Shown piece by piece: positions 13,667 to 25,288 of a DNA stretch of 64,000 nt (its first letter is position 1; each line of letters opens with the position of its first letter). Origin of the DNA: Flavobacterium sp. MC2016-06 (lineage in GTDB: Bacteria; Bacteroidota; Bacteroidia; Flavobacteriales; Flavobacteriaceae); assembly GCF_009711165.2 (NCBI RefSeq), contig NZ_WMID02000005.1:218135-282134 (forward strand), written 5' to 3'. The translations under genes were made by a program, and so were the position numbers. A model generated the notes under the pieces. That model did not search any database. It saw nothing but the letters and a program-made list of their open reading frames with translations, and had not been told where the DNA came from.

Positions 13667-14455
13667 ATGAAAAAAATCTTAAGATTAACAAGTTTGCTAT
13701 TTATTACAGCATTAGTGTTTAATTCCTGTGGAAATGAACAAGATTTACATGAGCCACAAGCCGTTAATAAGGACGAGCAAAAAATCGTTAACAATGAAGC
13801 CGTCTCGGCTAATGTAACATCAGAAAGTGCGACAGCAAAAGGTGGTGGTGCAGGAGCTAAAACGATCACATTACAAACAAATACCCTAACATGTCCTGGT
13901 GGTTTGTGTACATCGTATAGTGTTTCATCAACAGGCATTTACACCGTTTGGTTCAAGATGAAATTTAATTCCGGATTTTATTGGAGCAGAGGAGGTAAAT
14001 GCGGTTATGGAATATTAATTGGAGATCAAAATACCGGTGGTGACCCAGGATGGGATGGCAATGGAGGTAGTGCGAGATTTATGTGGTATTGCCCGAATGG
14101 ATCAAACACTGCCAAAGGAAGCGGCGCTTATCTACAGCCTTACGTTTATTATAGAGATCAACCGGGACAATTTGGTAATGATTTTGGAAAAAAATATTAC
14201 ATTCAAGAAGGAGTGACCTACGATTGTCAAATATCTGTTAAGTTAAATACAGGTTCAAGTACTAATGGATATGTCAAATATTATGTAAACGGCACGGAGA
14301 TATTAAATCAAACAATTCGCTGGGTGACCAACGATGCTAAACGAGTTATTAATGCAGTAAGTCTTCACACTTTCCGTGGCGGTAGTCAAGATTACTGGAC
14401 AGCTCCTGTAACAAGTTCTATTTATTATCAAGATGCAGCTTGGGATGCTCAATAG
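13667..14455 (+). CDS. Lipoprotein resembling polysaccharide lyase family 14
   Basis: The 262-residue product has a lipoprotein signal (lipobox VFNSC, C21) and a Gly-rich linker near residue 60. A single beta-jelly-roll-like domain follows. GGKCGYGILIGD at about 110, then GGSARFMWYC, a Tyr-rich YVYYRD segment, a VKLNTGSSTNGYVKYYVNG stretch and a late LHTFRGGSQDYW match the order of blocks in PL14-type lyases. There, GGKLPG, SARLMWR, LN..G..NG and FFGG occur. The Lys in GGK is kept. PL14 enzymes cleave alginate or glucuronan by beta-elimination. This protein may instead be a carbohydrate-binding relative. It has its own promoter sharing the susC box. Confidence 0.55.
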   Translation: MKKILRLTSLLFITALVFNSCGNEQDLHEPQAVNKDEQKIVNNEAVSANVTSESATAKGGGAGAKTITLQTNTLTCPGGLCTSYSVSSTGIYTVWFKMKFNSGFYWSRGGKCGYGILIGDQNTGGDPGWDGNGGSARFMWYCPNGSNTAKGSGAYLQPYVYYRDQPGQFGNDFGKKYYIQEGVTYDCQISVKLNTGSSTNGYVKYYVNGTEILNQTIRWVTNDAKRVINAVSLHTFRGGSQDYWTAPVTSSIYYQDAAWDAQ

Positions 14456-14761: not shown

Positions 14762-16114
14762 ATGACAAATTCAACTAACTCAGACCAGCAAACATGTCCA
14801 TATTTGGCGCAGCAAGCAGCGACAGCAGTAATTCCAGACATTACAACTCCACTTGTATCAACAACTAATCAACAGCCAGTTATTGGAACTTCTAATATCG
14901 GGCTCTTAAATAGTTTTATTGGTACTTGGAACAGCCCTACAGGAGCTGACGCAACAGGTTACAATGTAATGCCTCTGCCACAAGTAGATACTCCCAACGG
15001 TTACATCACTAAAAACTTTCCTTATTTTGAAGAAATCTCATTCTCGGCTATAGCTGGTGGTGCACCAAATCGTGAAGGACAGTATACACAGACAAGCGGC
15101 GTGTTGTTTTATGAGCAAAGAGTTTACATTGCAAACAATGCCGATCCAAGTGGCGCACAGCCAATTCAAAATACCTTAATTCATGCCGAAAATGGTGCTT
15201 GGCTGTATCATAATATAATGAACCAATTAGAGGGACCATATGGTCCAGATTTTGTTCCAGATCCAAATTTAATTCCCTCACAAAATTTAGCAACTCAGTA
15301 CAACAAACAAATTTCGGTACCTCATGGTGTTTCTATTTTAATGACAGGAGGACCAGTTAATTCTGGAACAGGAAATCCAGTTTTTCCAACTGCGGATAGA
15401 ACTCAGTTACCATTCACAGATCCTACGATTATTGATCCATCAACTTATTTGACACAACAATTGGCTGGATTGAATGCTAAAGGCATTACTGTTACTAATT
15501 ATTCAAGTATTACAGTTAGTACTACTAATCAAGGCGGTGGAGTAAGTAATATAAATTTTGAAAGTTCTTTTGGAAAAGTACTTTCAATGAACACCACTTG
15601 GTACGTTGAAACTTTAAGTAACGGAACCACGCAGTTACAATACATTCAAAATATTGTTTTAGAGTTTATAATTGATGGTCTTCCAACACCTTTTTTACAT
15701 ATTGACGCCAACACGCTGCAATTAGTAGAAACGTTTGTTCAGGTTAATTCAACGCAGCCATGGCAGGATACAGGAATTACTGTACAAGGAAGCCCAGTAA
15801 CAATAAGTTACAAGTCTGGTTTATGGACTGCAGATCCAGCAACAAATAATGGTAATCTATATGACGCAAATGGATGTCCAGGTAATATTATACCTCCATC
15901 ACTAACAGGCTATCCAATTCAAGGTATAAATATGGGTGCGCTAATAGGACAAGTTGGAACTAATCCTCCATTTTTAATTGGAGACGGACCAACTATAACT
16001 CCAGCAGGACAAAGCGGGACATTGAAATTATGTATCAATGATGATTTATATGGTATATACGGATCTGGATTAACCGATAACATTGGCAGTTTACAAGTGC
16101 GTATACAGCTTTAA
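14762..16114 (+). CDS. Haem-barrel (nitrobindin-like) and LecA-like lectin fusion protein
   Basis: The product is 450 residues if it starts at the ATG at 14762, which I prefer over a TTG at 14720. No signal peptide is visible. Residues about 45-330 resemble the FABP/nitrobindin-like haem-binding barrel, with LNSFIGTWNSPTGADATGYN, YFEEISFSAIAGG and a later LIHAENGAWLYH. The last 85 or so residues resemble the PA-IL/LecA galactose lectin: NMGALIGQVGTNPPFLIGDG, SGTLKLCINDD and DNIGSLQVRI. In LecA the matching Asn/Asp residues hold the calcium and sugar. It is the first gene of a seven-gene operon, 94 bases before the decarboxylase. The joint role is unknown; binding a haem or hydrophobic ligand at a glycan surface is inference. 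Confidence 0.6.
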   Translation: MTNSTNSDQQTCPYLAQQAATAVIPDITTPLVSTTNQQPVIGTSNIGLLNSFIGTWNSPTGADATGYNVMPLPQVDTPNGYITKNFPYFEEISFSAIAGGAPNREGQYTQTSGVLFYEQRVYIANNADPSGAQPIQNTLIHAENGAWLYHNIMNQLEGPYGPDFVPDPNLIPSQNLATQYNKQISVPHGVSILMTGGPVNSGTGNPVFPTADRTQLPFTDPTIIDPSTYLTQQLAGLNAKGITVTNYSSITVSTTNQGGGVSNINFESSFGKVLSMNTTWYVETLSNGTTQLQYIQNIVLEFIIDGLPTPFLHIDANTLQLVETFVQVNSTQPWQDTGITVQGSPVTISYKSGLWTADPATNNGNLYDANGCPGNIIPPSLTGYPIQGINMGALIGQVGTNPPFLIGDGPTITPAGQSGTLKLCINDDLYGIYGSGLTDNIGSLQVRIQL

Positions 16115-16208
16115 ATACTAAAACTGAAATGTCTTCAAAAGAGCAAGAACCCAATGATCTCTAGCTGAAAGACATTATATGACTTCCTAATCTAGAAAAT
16201 CAAACCAA

Positions 16209-17927
16209 ATGAAAACTACTAAAGAATTTACAGTTGCAGATTATCTGCTCACTCGACTTAAACAATTAAATGTTACCGAAGTTTTTCAAATTCCAGGCGA
16301 TTATGTAAAACATTTTACACAGGCTTTAGAAAACTTTGAAGGTGTTAAAACGATTGGAACTTCTAATGAATTGGATGCTTCTTATGCAGCAGATGCTTAT
16401 GCACGTACCCGAGGCTTAGGTGCTGTATCTCTACAATATGGAGTAAGTACTTTTAGTGCCTTAAATGCAATTGCAGGAGCTTATGTAGAACGCAGTCCTG
16501 TTGTTGTAATTAGTGCTGCTCCGGGAGCAGATGCCAGACAAATAGGGAATATGTACAATGTACTTTATCATCACTCGACAGGGAATCTCAACGCAGATCA
16601 AGAAGTGTATGAAAGAGTAACTGTTGCAGCTGAAACGTTGAGTAGCTCTGTAGATGCTCCAGAAAAAATCGACAATTTAATTATCGCAGCACTTACACAC
16701 CAGCGTCCTGTTTATATAGCATGTTATAAAGAAGTGTGGGGAGAACCCTGCCCGAAGCCATCTAATAAAAAATTAGAGGCTCAAATAATAAAGAGTGAAA
16801 AAGCAGCACTCGAAAATGCTGTTTCTCAAGCTTGGACTCAAATTAGTCAAGCAAAATCACCTCTAATTTTGGCAGGTGTAGAAATCTTGCGTCACGATTT
16901 AACCAATCAACTAGAAGAACTTATCAAAGAAAGCGGTATGTTGTATACTACCACTTCGCTGGGAAAAACGGTTCTGGATGAAAAAGGAGATAAATTTATT
17001 GGCACCTATTCAGATCAAGCCTCAATACCAGAAGTAATCAAGCTGGTTGAAGCTTCAGATTGTATTCTGTCTTTAGGAACAATTATTACTGATGATTATT
17101 TATGGCTCGTAGAAAATAAATTTTCAGATATGATTCAGGCCACCACGCAAGAAATGCGAGTTGGTTATTTTACGTATCAAAATGTAACTTTAAAAGACTT
17201 TATAGAAGCATTAATCGAACGTTTTAAAAAAGCATCAGCATATCCTTTAAAAACGAAAGCGCCAGCACAGCCAAAATTTCCAGAACCTTGGAGATCTAAC
17301 TCAGATCCTAAATACGATAAAACACCCGAAGTAATCACATTCAATCGCTTTTTTGAGCATACAGTTTCTTTCTTAGAAAAGAATAAAATGCTGAAAGATA
17401 TTGTGATGACTTTTGGCGTGAGCTCATCTATGTATGTGGCTACCAATATTTACGGATTAGCAAAGAATGCCTTTATTTCTTCGGCAGCTTGGCAGTGTAT
17501 AGGTTTTGAAACGGGTGCAGCTTCTGGTGCGCAGCTTGGAAGCGGTAAACAGGCTTGGACTATAGCCGGAGATGGAGGTTTTATGATGGTTGCACAATCA
17601 CTTTCGACCCTTGTAAAATACAATATCAACTCGATAATGTTTGTAATGAGTAACGGTGTGTATGCCATAGAGCAGGTATATGTAGATATAGACTCGTTTG
17701 AGGCAGGAACAAGTCATAAGTTTGATGAATTTGATATTCTTCCAAAATGGGATTATCAAGCATTAGCTAAAGCATTTGGGGCAAACAGCTACCGAGCTGA
17801 AACCGTTACAGAGTTAGATGAAGTACTTCTTAAACTTAAGAAAAAAACAAATCTTCCAACTCTGGTAGAAATTGTAATCCCGCAAAAAGATCTAGCACAG
17901 CAAATGGCAAGATTGGGTAACGAATAA
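16209..17927 (+). CDS. ThDP-dependent 2-oxo acid decarboxylase (pyruvate/indolepyruvate type)
   Basis: The 572-residue protein has the three-domain plan of pyruvate and indolepyruvate decarboxylases. The cofactor-activating E54 lies in TSNELDASYAADAYAR. The catalytic His pair H121-H122 is in LYHHSTG. The ThDP/Mg motif starts at about residue 453 with AGDGGFMMVAQSLST and ends in SNGVYAIEQ. These enzymes turn 2-oxo acids into aldehydes and CO2. The gene lies 47 bases before a flavin amino acid oxidase, whose product would be an imino or 2-oxo acid. It may therefore take the oxidase product, which fits an aromatic or branched amino acid pathway. The substrate itself cannot be read. Confidence 0.85.
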   Translation: MKTTKEFTVADYLLTRLKQLNVTEVFQIPGDYVKHFTQALENFEGVKTIGTSNELDASYAADAYARTRGLGAVSLQYGVSTFSALNAIAGAYVERSPVVVISAAPGADARQIGNMYNVLYHHSTGNLNADQEVYERVTVAAETLSSSVDAPEKIDNLIIAALTHQRPVYIACYKEVWGEPCPKPSNKKLEAQIIKSEKAALENAVSQAWTQISQAKSPLILAGVEILRHDLTNQLEELIKESGMLYTTTSLGKTVLDEKGDKFIGTYSDQASIPEVIKLVEASDCILSLGTIITDDYLWLVENKFSDMIQATTQEMRVGYFTYQNVTLKDFIEALIERFKKASAYPLKTKAPAQPKFPEPWRSNSDPKYDKTPEVITFNRFFEHTVSFLEKNKMLKDIVMTFGVSSSMYVATNIYGLAKNAFISSAAWQCIGFETGAASGAQLGSGKQAWTIAGDGGFMMVAQSLSTLVKYNINSIMFVMSNGVYAIEQVYVDIDSFEAGTSHKFDEFDILPKWDYQALAKAFGANSYRAETVTELDEVLLKLKKKTNLPTLVEIVIPQKDLAQQMARLGNE

Positions 17928-17974
17928 AAACTTCCACTAAACAAACAAATAAAAACCTTAAAAAACTTACGATC

Positions 17975-19969
17975 ATGAGCAAGAAAACATATTCCATTTT
18001 TGGAGCAGGTGCAGCTGGACTCTATACTGCTTGGAGACTACTTGAAGGAAAATCCAAAGAAAAAAACAACGAAAAAATGCTTGTTAAAGGCGATGTATTA
18101 GAGCTCTATGACTGGGGACAATATGATTTTTCTAAAAAAAATCCAGGAACTAGAGAACCAGGCGCACGTGTTTGTACATGGCATTATAAAGACAATAAAG
18201 ACAATTCGTACCTAGAATTGGGCGGTATGAGATATTCTTATTGGAACGGTACTCCTATGGGAGCTGGACATCGTGTAGTGACTAAAACCATAGAAAAATT
18301 GGACCTAAAAAAAGATTCAATTTCATTTAATGAGTCAGCAGATCCATTAATGTCTTTACGCGCTAAAAACATGTATATATCAGACATTAATTCTAATCAG
18401 CCAGCTCCGTATGCCGTAAACAATTATGGCGAAGATGCTCCGCCAGATGATGGATTTACAACCATACAATCTGTAGCAATTACACAAACATCTGGACCTG
18501 TTACCAGAAGAGAATGGTGTAAATTTTATGAAGATGGAAAAATCAATATTGATATGCCTGATAGTTCTATCTTTCAAAAAGGAGATTTACTAAAAGAGAT
18601 CGGATATTGGAATCTTGGTTATGATATGCTCGGGCAAGAAGGATTTAGTTATTTAGCCGATGGAAATGGCTATAGTTCAAACGTAGTAAACAGCCATAGT
18701 GCTCAGTCTTTTAATGTTAATGACGAATTTACTCCCGGAACCGAATACAAAACTTTAGTAAAAGGATATTCCAGTTTATTTGATACTTTATTTTTGGAAG
18801 TTGAAAAGCTGGCCAAAGCAAAAGGAATCACTTTAAATTATTTTCCAAATACTAGATTGCGTTCTATTGTGCATACCAAAGCAGGAATAAATTTTACAAC
18901 CGCAACACGCCAAGACCCAGACAAGCTTGCCGAAAGTAAAATTTGTAACGCAGCATTTTTGGCAATGCCGAGAGCAGCCATAGAATTAGTAGCAGAAGCA
19001 AGTAGATATAGCGACAAAGAAGGTTTAGATGTACTAAATCACGAAAAAGTGCAATTGTATTTAGAGTCTGTAATTATGGAACCTTCTTATAAAGTAGGTA
19101 TGTTTTTCAAGACACCATGGTGGAGAGAAACGCTAGACGGAGGTCCAACTTATCCTGCTAAGCTTACAAGTTACTTCTTGACACAAGACGGAATTGCTAA
19201 ATTAAAAAAAGAGAATTTCCCGTCTAATTATCTTAAAGAAATAGAATTGGCTAAAAGCCCCGTTATCATAGGAAATTCATTTAATGATAAAGTCAGTTTT
19301 ATAGCTGCTGTAGAAAATGCCATTCAAGAGCGTTTGACTTTTAAACAAGAAAAACAAATCGCAGTTATAGCCGAATTAGATACTATCGGGCCAAGTATTA
19401 CAGATATGCCTATTCGTCAAGTGGTTTATTTTGGTGATAATGCCAGAGACGAAAAAGGAGAAAAAGTATATGGTATTCTTGCCAGTTATGATGATATTCA
19501 ATATGCAACATTTTGGAAAGCATTAGAACTTGGGCCAAATGCCTCACGTGAAATTCCAGAATCTAGAGACTGTCAACCGCTTATAGGACCAAGAGAAGCT
19601 ACACCTGTAATGGTAAAAATGCTTCGTTCGCAATTAGCATCATTGCATTTTGGACCACAAGCAGATTACTCTTCAGTTCCTGAACCTTTAGAAACAAGGT
19701 ATATGGACTGGTCACTTCCTCCATTTAATGCAGGTTATCATGCCTATAAATCACATTATAGTTTAGGCGATGTACAAAGAAAAATTAGAAAACCATCACA
19801 GCTTATTCCAAAAACAGACTGCGATATTTTTATAGTTGGCGAAACCTATTCAAATGATCAAGCTTGGGTAGAAGGAGCCTTTTGTACTGCCGAATCTGTT
19901 TTGAATGATTTCTTTGGTATCGAAGAAATTATAGATCAAAAACATTACCCATTTATTTCTCCAGAATAA
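17975..19969 (+). CDS. FAD-dependent L-amino acid oxidase-like flavoprotein
   Basis: The 664-residue protein begins with the dinucleotide fold (YSIFGAGAAGLYTAWRLLEG, glycines 10, 12, 15). It has an arginine motif GARVCTWHY and the LELGGMRYS block that contacts the flavin in amine oxidases. Its C-terminus carries IVGETYSNDQAWVEGAFCTAE, the second FAD contact of this family. It is expected to oxidise an amino acid to the imine with release of hydrogen peroxide, like VioA, RebO and other L-amino acid oxidases. No signal peptide is seen. It lies between a 2-oxo acid decarboxylase and a VioB-type ferritin-like protein. Both neighbours could use its product. Confidence 0.8.
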   Translation: MSKKTYSIFGAGAAGLYTAWRLLEGKSKEKNNEKMLVKGDVLELYDWGQYDFSKKNPGTREPGARVCTWHYKDNKDNSYLELGGMRYSYWNGTPMGAGHRVVTKTIEKLDLKKDSISFNESADPLMSLRAKNMYISDINSNQPAPYAVNNYGEDAPPDDGFTTIQSVAITQTSGPVTRREWCKFYEDGKINIDMPDSSIFQKGDLLKEIGYWNLGYDMLGQEGFSYLADGNGYSSNVVNSHSAQSFNVNDEFTPGTEYKTLVKGYSSLFDTLFLEVEKLAKAKGITLNYFPNTRLRSIVHTKAGINFTTATRQDPDKLAESKICNAAFLAMPRAAIELVAEASRYSDKEGLDVLNHEKVQLYLESVIMEPSYKVGMFFKTPWWRETLDGGPTYPAKLTSYFLTQDGIAKLKKENFPSNYLKEIELAKSPVIIGNSFNDKVSFIAAVENAIQERLTFKQEKQIAVIAELDTIGPSITDMPIRQVVYFGDNARDEKGEKVYGILASYDDIQYATFWKALELGPNASREIPESRDCQPLIGPREATPVMVKMLRSQLASLHFGPQADYSSVPEPLETRYMDWSLPPFNAGYHAYKSHYSLGDVQRKIRKPSQLIPKTDCDIFIVGETYSNDQAWVEGAFCTAESVLNDFFGIEEIIDQKHYPFISPE

Positions 19970-19984
19970 TTCAATTAACCCAAA

Positions 19985-20038
19985 AAAGGCAGACTAATAC
20001 TAGTTTCAGTTTATGTATACAAAGGTTAGTCTGCTTTT
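19985..20038 (+). promoter_or_regulatory. Hairpin inside the operon, possible attenuator or processing site
   Basis: The arms 19985-19997 and 20026-20038 pair over 13 bases with one G-U pair. The core is GCAGACTAA with TTAGTCTGC. The loop is 28 bases and four T plus AA follow the stem. It lies between the oxidase and the ferritin-like gene. It could cause partial termination or protect one side of the transcript. It also argues against an ATG at 20013, which falls inside the loop. Confidence 0.5.
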
Positions 20039-20051
20039 AAATTTCAAACCT

Positions 20052-21566
20052 ATGAAAACAAAAAAACTTTTTACACTTTCGAATGAAGTAACAAAAGACA
20101 ATATCAAGGAAGTAATGCAGCAGGCAATTGCACTGGAGCTGGCTACTATTCCAACATATTTGTCTACCTATTATTCGATAAATAGAGCACAAGATCAAGA
20201 CAACTTGTACGCTAAACTTTATGCACAGCTTTCTATATTTGGTGAGCGAACTGCTGAAGAAATTGATGCGTTAGCACAAGAATTAAAATTAGATATATTG
20301 GTTTATTCCAATAAATCAGCAGCTTTAATTATGAGTGTTGTTATCGAAGAAATGCTGCATTTGGCATTATCATGCAATGTGAAGCAAGCCGTTTGTCAAA
20401 CACCTCCAGATCTTATGGGAATTGGAAAAGTATTATCGTTTCCAACTCAATTAGACGGGCATATTCCTGAATTTCAAATTAATGCGGCAAAATTATCATT
20501 AAAGCAATTAACTACTTTTTTACAGATAGAAAGTCCTGAACCGTTTGTAGATCCTTATGCAGAAGTACAATTAAAAAATACAATTGATTATCAAACGATT
20601 GGTCGTTTGTATGATATGATTATTTCTTGTGTAAAAGAAGATTTTCCAGGGCCCTATATAGAGCAGCCACAATTACTTCCTCCAGATAATCCATCACGCC
20701 CTAGACCATTCTATTCTCAAAACTCAATGAACACGGTACATTATGACAGAGAACACAATCCGCAATTTGCAAATGGTAATGACAGTGGCGGACTAGTTGG
20801 TGTGCATGATGCTCATTCGGCAGTAGATGCTCTAGAGCGTATTGTAGAACAAGGAGAAGGAAGGAGTAAAGAGAAACAGCATACGCTAATTTGGGGAGCA
20901 AATAAAATGCCGGTACCAATGGAGGTAATAGATGGCAAAGTAACCTTCTGGGAAGGAGATTATGATGATACAGGAAAAGAAGCAGCACATTTTGCCAAAT
21001 TTCTAGAAGCATATAGCCTTGGGGGTTATTATCAAGAAAAATTCAGCAAGATTCAGGGTTTAGATGATTTCTTCAGCTATTTTGTATACGATACAGATGC
21101 CAATCCTTCAACAGCAGATTACAAAGCTTCGGGTAACGAAGCGCTTGCACTTTGTTCAGAATTGGGTAATGCTGTTTTCGCCTATATTCTTTTAATGATC
21201 GAAACCTGTTATTATAAAGACGAAAGCACCCAATACGACTTATTCATGTACGGAATTCATAAATCAATGATCTGGCTTTTAAGCGGCGTAGGAAATCAAA
21301 TCAATTATTATACTTACAGCAAAGGTAATCAGGCTTACAAAGGAGCATTAACATTTGAACCTTTTTTATTCGAAAATAGTTCCTTAAGACCAAAAGCACA
21401 AATCATGAACTTGGTAGATCAATTAGCAAAAGCAGATCCTGATAATTGGGGTTGGGCAATTAAGAGCGAAAATTATTTCCCGTCTTTACCAGATGTAGGA
21501 TTAGATCATAGTGTTGTAGCAGATATGCCCAACGTACCAAGTACACCTTACAGCCATCAGCATTAA
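20052..21566 (+). CDS. Ferritin-like protein of the VioB/iminophenyl-pyruvate dimer synthase type
   Basis: The 504-residue protein opens with QQAIALELATIPTYLSTYYSI (about 23-43) and then VVIEEMLHLALSC (about 96-108). These two helices supply E29, E100 and H103 for a di-metal site. This pattern is that of the ferritin-like domain (PF12902 type) found in VioB and related imine-dimer synthases. VioB couples two indolepyruvate imines made by the flavin enzyme VioA. Here a flavin oxidase lies directly upstream, so a similar use of an imino acid is plausible. It is about half the length of VioB, so the reaction may differ. The ATG at 20052 is preferred over 20013, which lies in a hairpin loop. Confidence 0.7.
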   Translation: MKTKKLFTLSNEVTKDNIKEVMQQAIALELATIPTYLSTYYSINRAQDQDNLYAKLYAQLSIFGERTAEEIDALAQELKLDILVYSNKSAALIMSVVIEEMLHLALSCNVKQAVCQTPPDLMGIGKVLSFPTQLDGHIPEFQINAAKLSLKQLTTFLQIESPEPFVDPYAEVQLKNTIDYQTIGRLYDMIISCVKEDFPGPYIEQPQLLPPDNPSRPRPFYSQNSMNTVHYDREHNPQFANGNDSGGLVGVHDAHSAVDALERIVEQGEGRSKEKQHTLIWGANKMPVPMEVIDGKVTFWEGDYDDTGKEAAHFAKFLEAYSLGGYYQEKFSKIQGLDDFFSYFVYDTDANPSTADYKASGNEALALCSELGNAVFAYILLMIETCYYKDESTQYDLFMYGIHKSMIWLLSGVGNQINYYTYSKGNQAYKGALTFEPFLFENSSLRPKAQIMNLVDQLAKADPDNWGWAIKSENYFPSLPDVGLDHSVVADMPNVPSTPYSHQH

Positions 21567-21583
21567 TTAAAAAATAAAAAAAT

Positions 21584-22171
21584 ATGTCAGAATTAATAAC
21601 TAGAGAGCTTCATGTATGCATGGGACTTAATTCTTGCAAAAATGCAGGATATTCAGAAAATAATGATTGTGCAGGAAAAGGAGATTGTTCAACAGCTGTT
21701 GGTCATCCCTGCCACACTTTAAATTCATGTAAAAGCCAAGGTGGATGCGGAATTTTTGGAACTACCGAAGAACTTTGCCATCCAGGGGAAAACGACTGCC
21801 GTTATCAAGGAAGCTGCGGTGTGCCTATTTTATCTTCACGTTTTATGGCGCAAGGTCCAAATAAAGGACTTAGCGTTTGGCAGTTAGCAAGAGCACGTTT
21901 TGAAGAAAAAAGACAAAAAAACGGTGAATCATTTGGAGAAGCGCCACAGCAATACGGACCAAGTGAAGATTACGTAAACACCGTTCGCGGTACTACAGGT
22001 CAAGATTATTCTTCTTGTGGACAAAGCGGGTCAAGATCTTGTTCCTATATAAACAATCCTGCAGAAAGACAAACAGCTGCAGCTGCAAGGGTTTTGAAAA
22101 TGGAAGAAGAAAGCGCTAAAAAACTGCCTGAGACTATTTCAAACTGTTGTTCAAAAAACAATGACCACTAG
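21584..22171 (+). CDS. Cysteine-rich protein with CX5C repeats, candidate MNIO substrate
   Basis: The 195-residue product has 14 cysteines: 12, 18, 29, 35, 43, 49, 55, 65, 72, 78, 145, 153, 188 and 189. The first ten form repeated CX5C units with related sequence, such as LNSCK (twice), NDCAGKGDC, NSCKSQGGC and NDCRYQGSC. There is no signal peptide. The middle part (about 85-140) has the segment GLSVWQLARARFEEKRQ and no cysteine. Its stop overlaps the start of the DUF692 gene by 11 bases, which implies translational coupling. DUF692 enzymes modify Cys-rich peptides, so this is the likely substrate. It is much longer than most RiPP precursors, so it could instead be a metal-binding or electron-transfer partner. 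Confidence 0.6.
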   Translation: MSELITRELHVCMGLNSCKNAGYSENNDCAGKGDCSTAVGHPCHTLNSCKSQGGCGIFGTTEELCHPGENDCRYQGSCGVPILSSRFMAQGPNKGLSVWQLARARFEEKRQKNGESFGEAPQQYGPSEDYVNTVRGTTGQDYSSCGQSGSRSCSYINNPAERQTAAAARVLKMEEESAKKLPETISNCCSKNNDH

Positions 22172-23075
22172 ACTCGGATTACCCAATTTAGGATTGGGAT
22201 TAGGACTTAGAAGTCAGCATTTTGAGCATATTCTTGAAAAGAATCCTGCAGTAGATTGGTTTGAAGTAATCTCTGAGAATTTTATGGATTCGCACGGACG
22301 GCCAAGATACATCTTACAGCAAATAGCAGAAAAATATCCCGTGGTTATGCACGGGGTATCACTGTCTATAGGAAGTACAGATCCATTAAATTTTGATTAC
22401 CTAAAAAGTTTAAAACAGCTTGCAAGCGAGGTCAAACCAGCTTGGATTAGCGATCATTTGTGCTGGACAGGAGTTTTAACCACCAATTCGCACGATTTAT
22501 TACCGTTGCCGCTCAATGAAGATTCATTAAAACATGTTTGCAATCGAATCCTGCAAGTACAAGATTATTTAGAACGTCCGCTTATTATAGAGAATCCAAG
22601 TACCTACGCATCTTTTAATAATTCGACCATTTTAGAATGGGATTTTTTAAGAATCATGACCGAAGAAACGGGCTGTGGATTACTTTTAGATGTAAACAAT
22701 GTCTATGTATCTTCTTTTAATAATGATTTTGATCCTGTAGAATACATCAACGGAATTCCACATGATAAAGTTGTACAAATGCATTTGGCGGGACATCAAA
22801 ACTGTGGCAGCTATATTATAGATACACACGATAGAGAAGTCACTAGTCAGGTTTGGAAATTGTTCCAGCAAGCTTATCAATTGGCAAATCAAGCTTCGGT
22901 TTTATTAGAGTGGGATGGAAATATTCCAGCCTTTGATGTTTATCATTCTGAATTGCTTAAATCGAAGCAATATATGGATGCAGCATTTGTAGGAGCTGAA
23001 AATGAAGTTTTATCTCTAGATGAAGAACAAGTTTCAAATCCACTGAATATATTTAGTATGAATAAATTTTTATAA
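22161..23075 (+). CDS. DUF692 multinuclear non-haem iron oxygenase (MNIO family)
   Basis: The 304-residue protein opens with LGLGLRSQHFEHIL, which fits the DUF692 TIM barrel. Metal-ligand candidates are H64 (MHGVSLSIGS), D98-H99 (ISDHLCW), E144-N145 (IIENPSTY), D177/N180 (LLLDVNNVYVSS), H208/H212 (MHLAGH), D221/H223 and E250 (LEWDGNIP). All positions expected for the two or three iron ions are present. Known family members (MbnB, TglH, ChrH, BufB) oxidise cysteine or related residues in ribosomal peptides. The start overlaps the Cys-rich gene and the DUF2063 partner gene follows after 9 bases. This is the classic enzyme-plus-partner arrangement. Confidence 0.9.
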   Translation: MTTRLGLPNLGLGLGLRSQHFEHILEKNPAVDWFEVISENFMDSHGRPRYILQQIAEKYPVVMHGVSLSIGSTDPLNFDYLKSLKQLASEVKPAWISDHLCWTGVLTTNSHDLLPLPLNEDSLKHVCNRILQVQDYLERPLIIENPSTYASFNNSTILEWDFLRIMTEETGCGLLLDVNNVYVSSFNNDFDPVEYINGIPHDKVVQMHLAGHQNCGSYIIDTHDREVTSQVWKLFQQAYQLANQASVLLEWDGNIPAFDVYHSELLKSKQYMDAAFVGAENEVLSLDEEQVSNPLNIFSMNKFL

Positions 23076-23084
23076 ATCTCAAAG

Positions 23085-23924
23085 ATGTCCAAAGACGTTC
23101 AAATACCATTGAAAGACTTTCAGCAATGGATGCAGCAGCTTTTATTAGATCCTTACCAGCAAACAGGAATTGATCCTAGTAATTTACTTTCGAATGCCAT
23201 AAACGCCTCTTCAATTGAAGACGTAATTTGTCATTCTGAAAAATTGACCGCGCAAGAACATTTGGGTATTTACCAGCGAAGTTACATCGCGCGTTTACGA
23301 AATTGTATGTCGCAGCAATTTAGTGCTTTAGAATATGCTTTAGGTGAAACTATTTTTTGCGCTTTCGCCGATGATTATCTCGCTTCAAGACCATCTCATA
23401 ATTACAATTTATCTTTTTTAGGAGCTCACTTTTCAGAATATCTTCAAAATAACAGACCCGATGCTGAAGAAGAAGTGAAAGAAGATTGGATTGATTTTAT
23501 GATTGAACTGGCTCAGTTTGAATATGCCATTGGTGTTATTTTTGAAGAGAAAGCCGAAGAAAATTATCAATTAGCAACAACTAATACACCCGAAGAAGAT
23601 TTAAAATTAGTGCCTATATGTGCTTTATTTAAGTTTCAATTTCCGGTACGAAAGTATTATTCTGATTTTAAAAATGAAAAACAACCGAGTCTGCCTCTTG
23701 AAAACGAAACTTATGGTGTCGTTTTGCGTCACAAATTTAAATTGGCGGTTTATGATTTACACAAAGAGCAATATGATTTTTTAAATCTTTTGAAAGAACA
23801 AAAAGATATTGCTGCAACAAAAGAAATTTTTAAAGTTCAGTATAAAGAAAATGATACTTTATTTGAACAAGTGTGGAGTAGTTGGAAAGAACGTTGGATA
23901 GCTGCTAATTTTTTCCGCGTTTAG
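23085..23924 (+). CDS. DUF2063 family MNIO partner protein
   Basis: The 279-residue protein carries the DUF2063 (HvfC/BufC-like) pattern in its first half. HLGIYQRSYIARLRNCMSQQFSALEYALGETIFCAFADDYLASRPSHNYNL precedes FLGAHFSEYLQ. The middle DWIDFMIELAQFEYAIGVIFEE is also typical. In studied systems this protein helps the DUF692 enzyme recognise the precursor peptide. An early annotation as a DNA-binding domain is probably misleading. It is the last gene of the operon, 9 bases behind the MNIO gene, and a strong terminator lies at 23957-23995. Confidence 0.85.
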   Translation: MSKDVQIPLKDFQQWMQQLLLDPYQQTGIDPSNLLSNAINASSIEDVICHSEKLTAQEHLGIYQRSYIARLRNCMSQQFSALEYALGETIFCAFADDYLASRPSHNYNLSFLGAHFSEYLQNNRPDAEEEVKEDWIDFMIELAQFEYAIGVIFEEKAEENYQLATTNTPEEDLKLVPICALFKFQFPVRKYYSDFKNEKQPSLPLENETYGVVLRHKFKLAVYDLHKEQYDFLNLLKEQKDIAATKEIFKVQYKENDTLFEQVWSSWKERWIAANFFRV

Positions 23925-23956
23925 TAAACAGGATAAAGTATAGATAAAATACTTAA

Positions 23957-23998
23957 AAAAGGAAAGCTTATCTTTTTAAGACGAGCTTTCCTTTTATT
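23957..23998 (+). terminator. Terminator of the seven-gene operon
   Basis: The arms 23957-23968 (AAAAGGAAAGCT) and 23984-23995 are fully complementary, with a 15-base loop and a T-rich tail. It lies 33 bases after the DUF2063 stop. Confidence 0.85.
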
Positions 23999-25250: not shown

Positions 25251-25288
25251 ATATTGTGTTCCCAAGGTTGAAACCTTGGGCTATGTTT
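25251..25288 (+). repeat. 38-base repeat, left copy
   Basis: The sequence is identical to the reverse complement of 25461-25498. Its core CCCAAGGTTGAAACCTTGGG is itself nearly a perfect palindrome and would form a tight hairpin. Such paired palindromes resemble REP/BIME elements mobilised by Y1-transposase relatives. Confidence 0.75.

Follow-up and report, generated by a model that had tools for sequence, protein, structure and literature searches.

A Four-Gene MNIO Cassette With a Ferritin-Like Protein and Its Association With Amino-Acid-Oxidizing Genes in Flavobacterium

Introduction

Research on MNIO enzymes treats them as producers of copper-binding peptides that are secreted or periplasmic. 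In Flavobacterium sp. MC2016-06, the gene of such an enzyme lies in a string of seven plus-strand open reading frames (ORFs; 14762-23924, intergenic gaps of 94, 47, 82, 17, -11, and 9 bases) within a 64,000-nt stretch of DNA, which as a whole is referred to as the window. The MNIO gene and its DUF2063 partner share this string with genes for a Cys-rich protein, a ferritin-like protein, an amino-acid oxidase, a 2-oxo-acid decarboxylase, and a heme-binding protein, which raises the question of whether all seven serve a single pathway. A first-pass annotation had postulated that they do, yielding a product derived from an amino acid together with, or attached to, the modified Cys-rich protein. 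Its gene layout has been reproduced in every gap upon recomputation of the coordinates, and the MNIO/DUF2063 unit indeed stands in one gene string with the amino-acid oxidase and the decarboxylase. The conserved unit, as detailed below, is a cassette of the last four genes. In plus-strand order, the genes have been labeled g1 to g7:

14762..16114, plus strand: g1, heme-binding beta-barrel protein (NF040572, 'FMP'), accessory; NCBIfam profile match
16209..17927, plus strand: g2, thiamine diphosphate (ThDP)-dependent 2-oxo-acid decarboxylase of the indolepyruvate/2-keto-acid decarboxylase group, accessory; PF02776/PF00205/PF02775 and catalytic motifs
17975..19969, plus strand: g3, FAD L-amino-acid oxidase (LAAO), accessory; nearest to 7x7i and L-Lys/L-Arg oxidases
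about 19985..20038, plus strand: terminator-like hairpin between the two modules, 14 bp stem and T-run; folding and shuffles
20052..21566, plus strand: g4, PF12902 ferritin-like protein with a complete putative diiron ligand set, core; Pfam, alignment, and fusions
21584..22171, plus strand: g5, Cys-rich protein, putative MNIO substrate and distant BufA2 relative, core; profiles and alignment
22161..23075, plus strand: g6, MNIO (PF05114) above the NCBIfam BufB equivalog cut-off, core; Pfam and NCBIfam
23085..23924, plus strand: g7, DUF2063 protein (PME-type 1 or BufC-HvfC-like partner), core; PF09836
about 23955..23995, plus strand: terminator-like hairpin and T-run 3' of g7, ahead of a convergent carbonic anhydrase gene; sequence

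Four Genes Form the Conserved Unit

A pattern scan for the g5 family in named bacterial and archaeal genomes has given 120 matches, of which 70 have been confirmed as loci. Neighboring families were called in these loci with hidden Markov models (HMMs) built from the window genes and their matches; locus genes were taken as the longest ORFs, the start sites of which are unreliable in G+C-rich loci. Labels of the type L001 denote the genome regions compared, and a row is one gene or locus entry in an alignment or tree. The families of g4, g5, g6, and g7 have been found together in 66 of the 70 loci, which span Bacteroidota, Pseudomonadota (Gamma- and Betaproteobacteria), and Actinomycetota, the last with the gene order g5-g6-g7-g4. 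This four-gene cassette is the conserved unit and has been shown to travel together across phyla. Apart from L142, which is considered below, the incomplete loci are L094, in which the contig stops inside the MNIO gene, L137, in which a DUF2063 match is absent from a short contig, and L147 (an Acidobacteria metagenome-assembled genome, MAG), in which no g4 match has been found on a short contig that limits the view. No further recurrent neighbors have been detected among the clustered ORFs flanking the loci, except close relatives and generic genes.

The tie between g4 and g5 is closest in two Bacteroidota loci (L182 and L183) from a class-wide g5 search that has given matches in 8 of 395 genomes. 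In both, the g5 match sits inside a long ORF, the product of which carries an N-terminal PF12902 domain and a C-terminal g5-type domain (L182: 519 amino acids, 1.5e-32 and 1.2e-42; L183: 492 amino acids, 4.8e-33 and 2.6e-35), and an MNIO gene followed by a DUF2063 gene lies downstream. Judged from these fusions, the ferritin-like and the Cys-rich protein would work as a unit, with no need of any oxidase. The split drawn by the first-pass annotation, with the VioB-like g4 counted to the oxidase set, has been abandoned: the 66 loci and the two fusions rule this placement out and assign the ferritin-like gene to the MNIO half. The complete window-type order of seven genes recurs in L033 and L034, with proteins that are 79-92% identical to those of the window, and L042, which belongs to another family, has a string of six genes that lacks g1; because of this retention, the seven-gene string is conserved beyond chance.

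The Core Proteins

The ferritin-like protein g4 (504 amino acids) matches PF12902 at 6.6e-33 and contains no other Pfam or NCBIfam domain; its earlier designation as VioB-type stands insofar as PF12902 is confirmed, this being the only VioB domain in the protein. Two ExxH motifs (E100xxH103 and E310xxH313) are accompanied by the glutamates E29, E160, and E269, and in an alignment of 29 sequences E310 is nearly invariant and E29, E100, H103, E160, E269, and H313 are fully so, a pattern that matches a putative ferritin-like diiron site. The only clear relative of solved structure in a PDB profile search is 3hl1, a 'ferritin like protein' (7.6e-20). The longest possible g4 ORF begins at 20013, as compared to the start at 20052 used here.

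The g5 protein comprises 195 amino acids with 14 Cys, and its relatives about 155-251 amino acids in the rows listed. Eight Cys are invariant across all 30 relatives; the residue after C49 is R or K in 29 of them, and that after C18 is K in 23. The sole NCBIfam match of the family is BufA2, which is obtained for 28 of the 30 relatives at E <= 0.01 (best 2.4e-7), with scores under the curated cut-off wherever shown. At that cut-off, the BufA1/BufA2/EGKCG precursor signature has not been found in g5; as a yardstick, NF050166 (BufA2) is uninformative, with no match in 99 Bacteroidota genomes nor in 14 control genomes. No obvious signal peptide has been recognized in g5 by eye or by crude hydropathy, and a PDB profile search with the Cys-rich family has given no match. 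The AlphaFold model has a mean pLDDT (predicted local distance difference test) of 67.7, with good C-terminal helices. In several relatives outside Flavobacterium (L105, L106, L110, L113, L114, L116, L127, and L042), an N-terminal tail of repeated NGCG/GCG motifs precedes the conserved ELHxCMG start.

The MNIO g6 (PF05114) scores 357.7 bits against NF050167 (BufB; cut-off 310), which also matches 25 of 25 MNIO relatives at E <= 1e-10. Its partner g7 exceeds the PF09836 cut-off of 27.2 with 56 bits and stays, with 50 bits, under the cut-off of 142 for HvfC (NF050145); DUF2063 has been found in 30 of 30 g7 relatives (E <= 0.001). The initial assignment of a DUF692/DUF2063 pair with a Cys-rich putative substrate has therewith been confirmed. 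According to the excerpted text of the captophorin paper, MNIO-PME1 systems broadly install 5-thiooxazole on Cys (PMC13097082), and the excerpts of PMC12452194 report signal-peptide-less MNIO substrates with PME-type 2 partners and speculate that PME-type 1 proteins mask the signal peptide. As judged from its predicted sequences, the g5 family appears to break this published rule, combining in all 30 cases a DUF2063 (type 1) partner with a substrate on which a signal peptide is not obvious, and it thus bears on the masking proposal.

An Oxidase and Decarboxylase Module Joins the Cassette Repeatedly

The first gene of the other module, g1, matches the heme-binding family NF040572 with 183 bits (cut-off 150). 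Of its description as a lectin/haem-barrel protein, the heme-binding part has been retained, while Pfam has given no lectin domain at E <= 0.1. Such heme_FMP genes abut the core at 5-110 bp in 11 of the 70 loci (Bacteroidota and Saccharothrix). The proposed ThDP decarboxylase g2 has been corroborated by three ThDP domains (PF02776/PF00205/PF02775) and the motifs NELD..YAAD, YHHST, GDGG..N, and NGVYAIE, including the HH motif and catalytic Glu residues of pyruvate/indolepyruvate-type ThDP decarboxylases; it scores under all equivalog cut-offs among the best 25 of 54 families.

For g3, a sub-threshold PF01593 match is accompanied by clear amino-acid-oxidase relatives in the PDB, nearest 7x7i (502 bits), which is described only as an 'FAD dependent enzyme', and next the L-Lys oxidase 7eih/7eii and the L-Arg oxidase 8t8a/8jt7. 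The label VioA/RebO-type was accordingly correct in naming an amino-acid oxidase and imprecise as to its kind, as g3 is closer to the L-Lys/L-Arg oxidases. A role of 7x7i as an arginine oxidase has not been borne out. The fold and flavin-site family of g3 are common to the arginine oxidase PT-AROD (8T8A/8JT7, PMC11694665) and to AncLLysO (7EIH-7EIJ, PMC8405998), as far as the excerpts of these papers describe them. Counterparts of the AncLLysO recognition residues compared (R76, E383, K387, and Y516) are retained in g3, and the position of E493, the selectivity residue of AROD, is occupied by Ala. The clade relatives in L013 and L036 have Gln in place of E383, so that a basic amino acid is no more than a plausible substrate of g3.

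Three separate LAAO clades have been found joined to the cassette, each with its own ThDP partner clade, in trees with several long branches and some unsure row placements. Both AROD signatures are present in the oxidases of L042 (736 bits against AROD), L112, and L148. L068 has a second oxidase and ThDP pair downstream of the cassette, the oxidase of which is a relative of L-glutamate oxidase. In a gammaproteobacterial MAG (L115, 2-5627), a ThDP gene and a laminin-G plus FAD_binding_4/BBE oxidase (851 amino acids) precede the cassette, so that a BBE-type FAD oxidase, of a different type, replaces the LAAO in the same role. Outside the window, the genome of the window itself encodes a further pair of this kind, an L-glutamate-oxidase-like protein and a ThDP decarboxylase (C5:212752-216235, corresponding to L171:7753-11236); it is located about 17 kb upstream of g1-g7, and in other Flavobacterium genomes it lies directly downstream of g7. 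Relatives of DyP-type peroxidases precede g4 in L127 (6878-8431) and L148 (6347-8440), and another one is a neighbor of g1-g3 in L173 (10583-12554, minus strand); in L173 and L148 they are accompanied by a conserved protein of about 150 amino acids that has no Pfam match. We infer O2 and H2O2 chemistry as the recurring theme of these companions; because the oxidases differ between loci, a shared product such as H2O2 or a generic aldehyde would link the loci better than any one amino acid.

How tightly the modules are tied has been assessed in 55 loci flanked on either side by 5 kb or more, with 6.5 kb as the distance limit for a ThDP gene. Such a gene accompanies the cassette in all 17 loci of the close Flavobacterium group versus 2 of 38 others, and an oxidase match does so in 17 of 17 versus 4 of 38, with that of L109 on the opposite strand and that of L133 6.1 kb off at the locus edge. 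Among Flavobacterium relatives, L037 retains g4-g7 with remnants of g1 and g3, and L172 retains g1-g3 with only a g7-like remnant of the other half; g2-g3 are present without the cassette beside them in L173, L013, and L036. Because of the distribution of the ThDP gene and these opposite losses, the oxidase/decarboxylase pair is an add-on and not part of the core. The first-pass annotation had made its proposal depend on whether the halves occur apart in relatives, to which the answer is divided: they are largely apart outside the close Flavobacterium group (ThDP 2/38; oxidase set alone in L013, L036, L172, and L173) and together inside it (17/17). In the MNIO tree (52 rows), the label 'oxidase + ThDP', assigned to 12 rows including L115, which has no LAAO, needs at least four changes. 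Since oxidases of different families appear to have joined the cassette several times, some functional tie between them is likely. Across 299 Flavobacterium genomes, g5 has been found in 15 and g3 in 13, with 10 containing both, 3 only g3, and 5 only g5 (Fisher p 6e-13, kinship ignored); an L-glutamate-oxidase-like gene occurs in 11, of which 5 also have g5. The three samples of 299 behind these counts were assumed to consist of the same genomes, as labels and totals agree.

Exactly where the two modules meet, the g3-g4 gap of the window contains a hairpin of -17.8 kcal/mol; none of 500 mononucleotide shuffles has given so low a value. The earlier claim of one strong terminator after the last gene is borne out by the hairpin at 23955-23995, which the pattern scan had missed because its loop exceeds 8, and has to be supplemented by this second one. 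In 22 of 26 Flavobacterium rows (some genomes counted twice), the gap measures 20-47 nt and is hairpin-free, and longer gaps with hairpins have been found, besides the window, in L033/L088 and L068. Consequently, the hairpin is a trait of few strains.

Proposed Mechanism and Alternatives

Tentatively, and with slightly more doubt than confidence, we favor a mechanism in which the ferritin-like diiron protein would have a cytosolic partner whose Cys are modified by MNIO and DUF2063 protein, with an amino-acid-oxidizing module that would feed or accompany this system in some lineages. By analogy to bufferins, the pair would oxidize those Cys of g5 that lie in N-x-C-K/R stretches, 5-thiooxazoles being the most likely products, and the modified g5 could present a soft-metal (Cu-type) or redox site. 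The matured protein would remain cytosolic as a partner or subunit of g4, and both would constitute a two-component metalloprotein for O2, peroxide, or metal, in place of a secreted peptide product. The genes g1-g3 would form a second, optional module that converts an L-amino acid via the 2-oxo acid into an aldehyde, releasing NH3, CO2, and H2O2; this module would be transcriptionally fused to the cassette in the Flavobacterium group of the window and probably supplies substrate or peroxide. If true, the role of MNIO enzymes would extend to the maturation of enzyme subunits, the substrate being a cytosolic domain that is linked to a ferritin-like protein and in two cases forms one polypeptide with it. 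In a more specific form, which we regard as unlikely, the MNIO would mature a protein-borne cofactor, the Cys-rich domain providing a ferritin-like diiron oxidase with its metal or electron-transfer subunit, in some cases within one polypeptide, and various oxidases would be recruited to supply peroxide, imine, or aldehyde.

Several observations weigh against the mechanism favored here. The g5 of the window scores 16.5 bits against BufA2, far under the curated cut-off of 60, and its model is poor in the Cys-rich residues 1-60 (pLDDT mostly < 60) and offers no site geometry. L142 has the three other core genes and no g4 match despite 8.6 kb of downstream sequence, and in the L182 fusion the Glu of the last ExxH is, by eye, seemingly missing. 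All 70 loci were drawn by g5, and the survey covers g4 and MNIO genes only where g5 is present. Finally, an LAAO and indolepyruvate decarboxylase are known as a putative operon without MNIO from Pseudoalteromonas luteoviolacea, as far as its neighborhood is described in the excerpts of PMC6316408, and the tie between the modules may hence be loose.

The last point leads to a somewhat unlikely alternative, in which two independent modules share only a transcript in Flavobacterium, a catabolic or H2O2-producing oxidase-decarboxylase operon like that of P. luteoviolacea standing beside a bufferin-like metal-handling cassette. That each half survives alone (g1-g3 in L172, g4-g7 in L037), that g1-g3 type genes stand alone in L013, L036, and L173, and that a hairpin terminator divides the halves in the window would all be expected from such independence. 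The repeated joining of unrelated oxidases, together with a decarboxylase, to the cassette is not, and neither are the co-occurrence of g3 and g5 among the 299 genomes nor the short hairpin-free gap between the halves in most Flavobacterium rows. The cassette might also be a cytosolic metal buffer without joint catalysis, the modified g5 chelating copper and g4 storing or oxidizing iron like a mini-ferritin, with the heme protein and DyP peroxidases acting in the same response to oxidative or metal stress. The BufB, DUF2063, and BufA2 kinship of its proteins is in line with this idea, bufferins being copper chelators (PMC12452194, excerpts), as are the adjacent heme_FMP genes in 11 of 70 loci and the peroxidase genes before g4 in L127 and L148. 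We nevertheless consider it quite improbable: no metal-resistance gene recurs and no neighbor family beyond those modeled is conserved, the DoxX and sigma factor genes of bufferin operons have not been seen among the inspected neighborhoods listed, a signal peptide is not obvious on g5, and the g4-g5 fusions point to something beyond a pair of separate buffers.

Highly improbable is the originally postulated pathway, in which the oxidase would form an imino acid that is used by the VioB-like protein, and the amino-acid-derived product would be joined to the modified Cys-rich protein or arise together with it. It draws on the bisindole pathways of VioA/VioB and RebO/RebD, in which an FAD amino-acid oxidase is coupled to a PF12902 protein. 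VioB/RebD chromopyrrolate-type synthases are heme-containing proteins of about 1000 amino acids that act on the imine of indole-3-pyruvic acid (IPA imine), whereas g4 has 504 amino acids and the PF12902 domain alone. Unlike in these pairings, g4 is kept without a nearby oxidase in most loci. The repeated recruitment of oxidases to the cassette would agree with a joint pathway; as these are arginine-type in L042, L112, and L148 and L-glutamate-oxidase-like in L068, a route from one amino acid to one specific product is unlikely, and so, on the same grounds, is a single amino-acid product common to all loci. What stands of the original postulate is that some functional tie is likely. A PF12902 gene also occurs in fungi near lodA-like quinoprotein amino-acid oxidase genes (PMC4417212, excerpts), a further case in which this domain is associated with amino-acid oxidation.

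Relation to Known Systems

The closest described systems are the bufferins/captophorins (BufA2-BufB-BufC), 5-thiooxazole copper-binding RiPPs (ribosomally synthesized and post-translationally modified peptides; excerpts of PMC12452194 and PMC13097082), with which the cassette shares the BufB-type MNIO, the DUF2063 partner, and a putative substrate that is rich in Cys, bears C-K/R motifs, and resembles BufA2 weakly but recurrently. Unlike bufferins, g5 has no obvious signal peptide, is larger (about 155-251 amino acids in the family), and is strongly conserved; the cassette has a ferritin-like partner gene or fusion, with neither DoxX nor sigma factor seen among the inspected neighborhoods listed. 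The adjamnio-1, adjamnio-2, and adjamnio-I families, putative MNIO substrates of which adjamnio-I measures 122-293 amino acids with 8-21 Cys (PMC12452194), are, like g5, Cys-rich proteins adjoining MNIO genes; they are signal-peptide-less, as g5 may be, and may already include g5. Compared by description only, they are reported with PME-type 2 partners and no mention of a ferritin-like gene in the excerpts, whereas DUF2063 accompanies the g5 family in the 30 cases compared. The Pl-LAAO operon of P. luteoviolacea shares the LAAO and an indolepyruvate-decarboxylase-like gene in one putative operon, with no ferritin-like, Cys-rich, MNIO, or DUF2063 gene in its neighborhood as described in the excerpts (PMC6316408). 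Among the literature matches listed, which cover main texts, no system has been found that combines an MNIO with a ferritin-like, VioB, or PF12902 protein or an amino-acid oxidase; in PMC8224329, DUF692 and 'ferritin-like' both occur, the latter merely in a reference title. The earlier statement that no described pathway contains this set of seven is in agreement with these matches.

Flanking Features

A promoter of the form TTTG-N17-21-TANNTTTG has given no match on the plus strand of the window or in the scanned intergenic stretches, and sigma-70-like sites show no excess over shuffles in the pattern scan of the window. A phage, plasmid, or defense origin of the operon has been rejected: of 44 pattern matches in viral contigs, 0 have been confirmed as relatives, no plasmid match has been obtained, and 0 of the 7 operon proteins match PADLOC anti-phage defense models at E <= 0.001. 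Directly upstream of the operon (13667-14455), a polysaccharide lyase 14 family gene follows a SusD-like lipoprotein gene and shows no conserved association with the operon in the loci inspected. Downstream, past the carbonic anhydrase gene and before the gene that follows it, a palindromic CCCAAGGTTGAAACCTTGGG hairpin with a T-rich tail occurs twice in about 230 bases (25261-25280, and on both strands to 25488).

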